A stretch of 33,950 nucleotides of DNA from Parcubacteria group bacterium (lineage in GTDB: Bacteria; Patescibacteriota; Minisyncoccia; Phycocordibacterales; Zambryskibacteraceae): assembly GCA_028286565.1 (NCBI GenBank), contig JAQBRH010000004.1, positions 1 to 33,950 on the forward strand. The letters are read 5' to 3'. The translations under genes and the position numbers were made by a program. Positions 1,286 through 28,494 of this stretch are shown here, piece after piece. Positions within the stretch are counted from its first letter, which is position 1. Each line of letters starts with the position of its first letter. The notes beneath the pieces were generated by a model. It saw nothing but the letters and a program-made list of their open reading frames with translations. It searched no databases and had not been told where the DNA came from.

Positions 1286-1314
1286 CTTTTAACCATGTGG
1301 GACCAAATTACGAG

Positions 1315-1387
1315 AGCCACCTGTCAGAGTCGAACTGACGACCTTCACTTTACAAAAGTGTTGCTCTACCAACTGAGCTAAGGTGGC
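1315..1387 (-). tRNA. tRNA-Thr (anticodon TGT)
   Basis: GCCACCT/AGGTGGC acceptor stem, D-arm GCTCAGTTGGTAGAGC, anticodon loop TTTGTAA, T-arm CTGACAG-type stem around TTCGACT. Confidence 0.93.
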
Positions 1388-1388
1388 T

Positions 1389-1625
1389 TTATAAACGGGA
1401 TGACAAATACCTCCTACCAAACCCTGTCTTGAAATACTTCTCCCTTTGTATCGCCTTTTCTTTACTTAAGCAAGCTTCATAGTATTCAAGCGACAAAGGA
1501 ATTCGATCCTTCGTTGCAACGACTAAGCCTTTGTTATGCTTTTGAACTCGAGCCCTCAAATCATCTGTCCATCCGACATACAACTTTCCATCTTTTGAAC
1601 TCCGTAGTACATAAGTGTAATACAT
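1389..1625 (-). CDS. Small GIY-YIG domain endonuclease-like protein
   Basis: YYTYVLRSSKDGKLYVGWTDDLRARVQKHNKG...REKYFKTGFGRRYL matches the short single-domain GIY-YIG family. Confidence 0.85.
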   Translation of the reverse strand: MYYTYVLRSSKDGKLYVGWTDDLRARVQKHNKGLVVATKDRIPLSLEYYEACLSKEKAIQREKYFKTGFGRRYLSSRL

Positions 1626-1627
1626 AG

Positions 1628-1703
1628 TGTTGCTCTACCCGCCCGCCATCGCAAGATTGAGCTTGCTCAGGCGTTGCGGGCGGGCCAACTGAGCTAAGGT
1701 GGC
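1628..1703 (-). pseudogene. Duplicated 5' half of tRNA-Thr interrupted by a palindromic insert
   Basis: GCCACCTTAGCTCAGTTGG + 45-nt palindromic insert + GGTAGAGCAACACT, matching the 5' 31 nt of the intact tRNA at 1315..1387. Confidence 0.85.
1638..1684. repeat. REP/MITE-like nested palindrome
   Basis: Minus strand CCCGCCCGCAACGCCTGAGCAAGCTCAATCTTGCGATGGCGGGCGGG: nested arms CCCGCC/GGCGGG, CGCAA/TTGCG, TGAGC/GCTCA. Confidence 0.7.
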
Positions 1704-1709
1704 GTTGGG

Positions 1710-2150
1710 CTACTTTACCTCTTCTTCGGAGTTTTGGGAATCGATCGCGAGATTCTCCGGAGTATCCTCGAGGCCGGCCGCGGTCTCCTTTTCCATCTCT
1801 GAGATGTTCTTGAAGAATTCGGAGATGCCTTCGTTCTTCGGCTTGAGGAGCTTGGTGTTCCTGATGTCCCCGAGGTATTTCTGGCTTTTCTCCTTGATGA
1901 CCGCTTCGGACTTGTTCAAGAAGTTCCTTGTGTGGAGCGGAAGCTGCTTCTTCACGAAGAACTCGCCCCTTTCCTTTAGATCGCCATAGGAATGCGCCGC
2001 GATGTGCGAGAGAGAGCGGAGTCGGGTATCCCCCTTGGAGATAAGCGTAAGGACGCCCAGGGGCTTCCTGCGCTTTGTCTCCCAAATCTTCGCGAGCAGC
2101 AAGAGGACGATGACCGCGCCCGAGAAGTAAAAAAGGATAATGGATACCAT
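1710..2150 (-). CDS. Hypothetical membrane-anchored protein (single N-terminal TM helix)
   Basis: Start MVSIILFYFSGAVIVLLLLAKIWETKRRKPLG; the upstream part of the listed ORF overlaps tsf and is not credible. Confidence 0.65.
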   Translation of the reverse strand: MVSIILFYFSGAVIVLLLLAKIWETKRRKPLGVLTLISKGDTRLRSLSHIAAHSYGDLKERGEFFVKKQLPLHTRNFLNKSEAVIKEKSQKYLGDIRNTKLLKPKNEGISEFFKNISEMEKETAAGLEDTPENLAIDSQNSEEEVK

Positions 2151-28183: not shown

Positions 28184-28407
28184 GCTATGTAGCATACCAC
28201 TATTTGGCTGAGGCGGGGATTCTGTCCTTACAGGACCAGTACCCCGATTGGATAATGTATATGGCGGAGAGATTCGGTCACGAGTCGTTTTCTGCTGAAA
28301 ACGCTCTCGACCCCGCCTCGCGCCGTCGCGCTCCGGCTTTCTCATCTCTTTCCTCACGCGCCGACGTCCGACGCAGACAGCACCCCGGCTGTCCTTGCCG
28401 GTCGTTG

Positions 28408-28494
28408 CGGAGGCGGAGAGATTCGAACTCTCGAGACCCTTTCGAGCCTGCTACCTTTCCAAGGTAGTGCACTAGACCACTATGCGACGCCTCC
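28408..28494 (-). tRNA. tRNA-Ser (anticodon GGA)
   Basis: GGAGGCG/CGCCTCC acceptor stem, anticodon stem-loop CTACC-TTGGAAA-GGTAG, long variable arm, T-arm GAGAGTTCGAATCTCTC. Confidence 0.95.

Follow-up and report, generated by a model that had tools for sequence, protein, structure and literature searches.

The element described here appears, by the logic of its organization, to have its nearest precedent in the mobile ORFs with duplicated gene ends of fungal mitochondria, which are known from atp6 of Allomyces and from atp6, atp9, cox2 and nad3 of Glomus (PMC3630166). In both systems, an endonuclease ORF is located between the leftover of a native gene end and another copy through which the gene stays complete. 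This other copy may be foreign and recoded in the fungi, and appears so here at the loci L127 and L167 discussed below; the fungal ORFs differ, however, in that they occupy the 3' ends of protein-coding genes in mitochondria and mostly encode LAGLIDADG enzymes (PMC3630166). The elements analyzed here reside at the 5' ends (sometimes the 3' ends) of bacterial tRNA genes and at the starts of other genes, and combine a 78-aa GIY-YIG domain with a cognate palindrome. The REP palindromes and the associated RAYT, a Y1 transposase, likewise consist of a small enzyme gene and lineage-matched palindromes, some of which stand alone at other places in the genome. Palindromes that match the ORF lineage and have dispersed copies are found here as well, but the Y1 tyrosine transposase is absent, the sole gene of the unit encodes a GIY-YIG protein, and the targets are tRNA genes.

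Two systems are related by their nuclease. SegB is a free-standing, tRNA-gene-associated GIY-YIG homing endonuclease that is reported to cut inside tRNA genes; unlike the elements here, it is phage-encoded and located in tRNA arrays, and neither a cognate palindrome nor a tRNA remnant that is split was found in the published account (PMC13096335). Insertions in rRNA genes of the CPR, which are of the non-intron type and were judged to be sparse, also encode GIY-YIG proteins, and the authors placed these outside spread by homing (PMC11270868). The phylum and the nuclease superfamily are the same as in the present case, whereas the interrupted genes encode rRNA, and tRNA genes are not mentioned (PMC11270868). 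A survey of the GIY-YIG superfamily covers prokaryotic Slx1-like proteins, and the passages of that survey devoted to them contain no description of tRNA-splitting elements (PMC1564403); among openly licensed PMC papers, no description of tRNA-splitting GIY-YIG elements with palindromes was found.

The locus in question belongs to a 33,950-nt stretch of DNA from a Parcubacteria group bacterium, hereafter the window. The original prediction placed a 78-aa GIY-YIG ORF between direct repeats of the first 31 nt of tRNA-Thr; the coordinates (Table 1) agree with this, and the upstream repeat is an exact copy of the start of the intact tRNA. The arrangement stands as predicted, with one omission, namely, a 47-nt palindrome (CCCGCCCGCAACGCCTGAGCAAGCTCAATCTTGCGATGGCGGGCGGG) in the D-loop of the upstream copy, which it splits after nt 19.

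Table 1. Features of the tRNA-Thr locus (window coordinates)
Feature	Position	Strand	Remarks
tRNA-Thr 5' remnant, tRNA nt 1-19 (GCCACCTTAGCTCAGTTGG)	1685..1703	-	identical to intact tRNA nt 1-19
GC palindrome, 47 nt, clean insert in remnant D-loop	1638..1684	-	related solo copy elsewhere
Remnant continuation, tRNA nt 20-31 (TAGAGCAACACT)	1626..1637	-	
GIY-YIG nuclease ORF, ATG to TAA, 78 aa	1389..1625	-	Y5, Y16, G18, R26, H30 and E62 present
Single A between ORF and intact tRNA	1388	-	
Intact (restored) tRNA-Thr(UGU)	1314..1387	-	ARAGORN; Rfam RF00005, 67.3 bits
Conserved membrane-protein gene, upstream	1713..2150	-	synteny anchor, outside the element

Several known types of insertion do not fit this locus. 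An Rfam search of window positions 1250-1800 matches no intron family and the downstream tRNA is complete, so that the reading of a tRNA intron was dropped; a group I or other self-splicing intron was rejected as well, given the absence of an intron RNA core between tRNA exons. A tRNA-integrating element or island of the tyrosine recombinase type would require an integrase, which is absent, and the duplicated end is the 5' rather than the 3' one. A Penelope-like retroelement was discarded because there is no reverse transcriptase and the domain match spans residues 1-71 of the 78-aa ORF. Just downstream of tRNA-Thr, at ~1264-1284 on the minus strand, the window contains a tRNA-Gln 3'-end fragment (ATTCGAGTCCCTGATCGGCAG) at which an intact tRNA-Gln is absent.

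The 78-aa protein matches PF01541 (E 4e-14) and retains the catalytic Tyr, Tyr, Gly, Arg, His and Glu, and so belongs to this superfamily; the catalytic residues are 98-100% conserved among 182 ORFs (178 to 182 of the 182 at each site). The solved structures that are nearest in sequence are those of UPF0213, single-domain GIY-YIG proteins that are listed as hypothetical proteins (PDB entries 1zg2, E 5e-5, and 1ywl, 0.037). Relatives of the window-type protein were searched for with an alignment of three sequences as the query, and the start positions of the ORFs were set by rule in scripts. The window ORF is 77% identical to an ORF from Woykebacteria and 76% identical to one from Doudnabacteria; within its own genus, the identity is 78% for the genome G005 and at most 47% for all others. 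In phage records, only weak relatives are detected (4 records, identity of 44% or less). The identities across lineages point to horizontal spread of the kind expected of a homing endonuclease gene.

The membrane-protein gene adjoins tRNA-Thr(UGU) in 29 of the 31 genomes of the family. The tRNA-Thr site beside it is empty in 26 genomes and occupied in three (the window, G004 and G026), by three different GIY-YIG ORFs; thus, occupied and empty alleles are present at one conserved site with the host gene whole, as is the case for homing genes. The empty site of G005 reads TAGTTCAAC followed by GCCACCTTAGCTCAGTTGGTAGAGCAACACTTTTG, and the occupied site of the window reads TAGCCCAAC, then GCCACCTTAGCTCAGTTGG, the palindrome, TAGAGCAACACT, the ORF and A, then GCCACC; the remnant therefore is in the native position, with about 316 nt added. 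It abuts the upstream gene as the tRNA does in the empty sites of G005 and G008. Comparison of these genomes shows polymorphism of occupancy and repeated independent invasion of one site. The empty sites in relatives, where tRNA-Thr loci with and without the ORF could be compared directly, support the original prediction that a minimal GIY-YIG element entered the tRNA gene and that the complete tRNA was restored downstream. Beside tRNA-Thr of G024 (L108) and G023 (L114), there are possible ORF-less 3' scars with a repeated 3' end and, in L114, a hairpin.

The same architecture recurs in the genus, the family and the phylum, and the arrangement in the window is therefore not due to chance. All 31 family genomes, which like the other genomes surveyed are largely metagenome assemblies, contain GIY-YIG matches (a count that includes UvrC), and 27 of the 79 small ORFs in the family have an intact same-strand tRNA gene shortly downstream; the succession of remnant, ORF and tRNA is found at other tRNAs in the genus of the window, too. 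When named genomes are scanned for the window-type protein, 80 loci are recovered, the majority from Parcubacteria and Microgenomates, and the full pattern is present at many of them. Window-type ORFs are present in 57 of the 117 phylum genomes sampled, so the element is not a one-off. Among 188 distinct GIY-YIG ORFs of the phylum, 70 are followed by an intact same-strand tRNA gene (tRNA start at -40 to +160 nt from the ORF stop) and none by an antisense one, compared with ~1.3 expected by chance; given that the ORFs share ancestry and the counts are not independent events, the tiny Poisson value conveys an order of magnitude only. In an independent draw from the phylum, the loci retrieved contain 30 ORFs, of which 12 directly adjoin a tRNA on the same strand and, again, none an antisense tRNA. 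The 70 tRNA-adjacent ORFs cover all 20 isotypes; for 57 of them the distance to the tRNA is -16 to +10 nt, and in 12 cases the ORF stop is exactly the TAG at tRNA nt 8-10. The remaining 118 of the 188 ORFs are located away from tRNAs. At L017, L027, L028, L059 and L067, the ORFs belong to a distinct GIY-YIG lineage; they follow tRNA-Gln at a distance of ~80-100 nt and are preceded by a CTTCG-rich palindrome.

Most of the tRNA-adjacent ORFs carry a palindrome-split tRNA 5' remnant. In 37 of 61 cases, the remnant scores above the 95th percentile of a null obtained with the wrong tRNA (another isotype); detection relied on a simple two-segment match that misses diverged remnants, and at some tRNA-adjacent ORFs (e.g., L048 and L050) this search shows no visible remnant. 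The occurrence of the ORF beside the 5' halves of other tRNAs, across the family and the phylum, and the movement of one ORF lineage between isotypes further bear out the prediction of element entry, and a lack of relation between the position of GIY-YIG genes and tRNA 5' duplication in the homologues, which would have refuted it, is not observed. The comparison also shows exchange of the elements between tRNA types and between phyla. The acceptor strand of the remnant is the same as that of the restored tRNA in 36 of 43 tRNA cases; foreign acceptor strands are found at L010, L120 and L123, and layered invasions at a single tRNA at L123, L129 and L133. As in the fungal case, the ORF lies between the native remnant and a further copy of that gene end; this copy is foreign or recoded at L127, L167, L010, L120 and L123, and in the window the copies are identical.

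Of 200 shuffled versions of the window palindrome, 199 fold less well than the palindrome itself (z -3.1), which is inserted cleanly, without flanking duplication. Entry at the anticodon stem, as originally envisaged, does not emerge as a fixed property: the palindromes are located anywhere between tRNA nt 3 and 35 and, rarely, in the T-loop (L267). Similarity of the ORFs tracks similarity of the palindromes (Mantel r 0.56, p 2e-4), and this correlation holds for pairs at different tRNAs (r 0.57); correlation of ORF similarity with tRNA isotype is weak (r 0.13). Thus, the palindrome type follows the ORF lineage and not the identity of the tRNA, and the element includes the lineage-specific palindrome by which the remnant is split. 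Solo window-type palindromes are dispersed in 13 of the 31 family genomes (~50 matches vs 4 for a reversed control pattern); the window's own genome has two. The palindrome at G000:C4:155123-155169 is a related solo copy. In L130, the ORF lies between both arms of a palindrome.

The architecture extends beyond the 5' ends of tRNA genes. In a mirror-image (type II) order, an intact tRNA is followed by the ORF and then by a palindrome-split 3' remnant (L025, L033 and L157), and the ORF of L157 is of the window type. At L127, where the ORF is 69% identical to that of the window, the native start MKILVTGGAGF is followed by a partial palindrome, the ORF and a complete epimerase-family gene starting with MKVLITGGAGFIGSH; the two start copies are identical in 25 of 34 nt. 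A similar protein-gene form is found at a formyltransferase gene (L167), with 36 of 46 nt identical between the start copies. Many more ORFs are located at the starts of protein-coding genes, between CCCGTTAGA-type and ACGGGRTGA-type ends. At such loci, including L158, L171, L174, L180, L183, L194 and L261, the ORFs have terminal inverted repeats that range from short to long (CCCGTTAGA.., CCCCGTAGTGAAAATTC..), and the ORF stop often overlaps the start codon of the host gene. In L165, a GIY-YIG ORF with a palindrome is found at the 5' end of an apparent tmRNA gene (GGGGGTGATAGGTTTCGACGG).

Given the recurrence at all kinds of tRNA and at some protein-coding genes, the arrangement looks like a mobile element, and these ORFs likely constitute a family of mobile, target-restoring GIY-YIG elements of Patescibacteria that probably spreads by homing-like break repair. 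The many ORFs located away from tRNAs and the tRNA-adjacent ones that show no remnant weigh against this reading. That both 31-nt copies of the window are identical could also be explained if the 5' end of the tRNA had undergone local tandem duplication and had happened to capture an ordinary GIY-YIG gene, but the recurrence at all 20 isotypes, in the same order and on the same strand, with palindromes and ORFs that are common to different tRNAs, renders this extremely improbable, and a simple tandem duplication is ruled out by the recurrence. It is also highly improbable that the ORF serves the host in tRNA processing, stress response or regulation and is co-transcribed with the tRNA behind a remnant that acts as a regulatory leader: the ORF is always in the sense orientation and abuts the tRNA, as a host gene of this kind would, but occupancy is patchy (3 of 29 at one syntenic site), several unrelated ORFs can occupy one site, ORFs are exchanged between tRNAs and phyla, and protein-coding genes are targets as well.

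Transposition of the REP/RAYT kind is a stronger contender, even if it is, on balance, unlikely. Here, the nuclease would act on palindromes and on hairpins of tRNA genes, and staggered nicks would lead to duplication of a target stretch of 10-60 nt, in which case the tRNA 5' half would have arisen as a long target-site duplication and not as a copy from a donor. The cognate palindromes that go with ORF lineages, the dispersed solo palindromes and the ORF between palindrome arms in L130 are all compatible with this scheme, and so is the match of acceptor strand and remnant, considering that related ORFs use different tRNAs; in general, this identity, despite the frequent change of tRNA type, suggests either same-type homing or target duplication. 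Neither the diverged second copies at the protein targets nor the foreign acceptor strands at tRNAs would be expected from target duplication, however, and the unit encodes neither a transposase nor a reverse transcriptase. The diverged second copies at L127, L167, L010, L120 and L123 favor a donor copy, as in homing, and the homing-like route appears preferable to the transposition-like one. It can nevertheless be proposed, tentatively, that the 78-aa GIY-YIG nuclease and the palindrome represent a class of minimal mobile elements of their own: a REP-like transposition system of two parts that uses hairpins of tRNA genes as landing sites, restores the tRNA upon each insertion, and in this way brings about the duplication and replacement of tRNA genes throughout Patescibacteria.

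Under the homing-like route, the element would consist of one small gene for an Slx1/UPF0213-like GIY-YIG nuclease and a cognate GC palindrome, and its point of entry, in tRNA genes and at some starts of protein-coding genes, would lie between the body of the gene and its promoter side. The nuclease is predicted to break the uninterrupted tRNA gene of the recipient, and the repair would copy in the ORF together with the 5' part of the tRNA or other target gene. The host's own 5' end would stay upstream as a dead, palindrome-broken remnant, with the nuclease ORF in the sense orientation behind it and the complete tRNA gene next, so that the host would remain unharmed. Within the remnant, the palindrome might guard against a renewed cut, keep the ORF from being lost when the repeats recombine, and hinder the remnant from misfolding with the 3' half of the tRNA.

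If this is correct, a widespread class of mobile elements exists in a bacterial group that ranks among the largest and the least understood, and for these elements the essential tRNA genes of every isotype are safe harbors and a single domain-sized gene suffices. Such elements would help to account for the abundance of small GIY-YIG genes in the reduced genomes of Patescibacteria, provide a route for replacement of tRNA genes by foreign alleles (as at L010, L120 and L123), and represent a compact nuclease family with directly testable target choice.

ORF-less inserts are also found near tRNA genes. In the window, tRNA-Ser(GGA) (28407-28494) is followed by a highly conserved, structured insert (28276-28337, minus strand) with the layout GCCGGAG-hairpin-GGGGTCG-hairpin-GTGACC and then by a tRNA-Ser 3' fragment (GAATCTCTCCGCC). 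Copies of the GCCGGAG..GTGACC motif number 17, spread over 7 of the 31 family genomes, with no occurrences of a control pattern, and the short stem of the motif varies in a compensating manner (GCGC/GCGC, GGCC/GGCC, GCAC/GTGC); the window copy has no match in Rfam. Several inspected copies have a tRNA gene before and a tRNA 3' remnant after the motif. In L269 (G000:C2, ~63830-64100), the motif follows tRNA-Gln(CUG) and precedes stretches complementary to the tRNA-Gln 3' half and further copies of the 3' end. In L232 (G020, ~1264-1540), tRNA-Asp is split at the anticodon by ~200 nt that resemble a self-splicing intron; an Rfam search of the whole locus at the gathering threshold gives no intron match. 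Finally, upstream of tRNA-Asp in L227 (G000) and L230 (G007), there are ORF-less scars that consist of a 5' remnant (GCGGCAGTA or GCGGCTGTA) and ~65 nt with palindromic sequence, followed by the intact tRNA-Asp.
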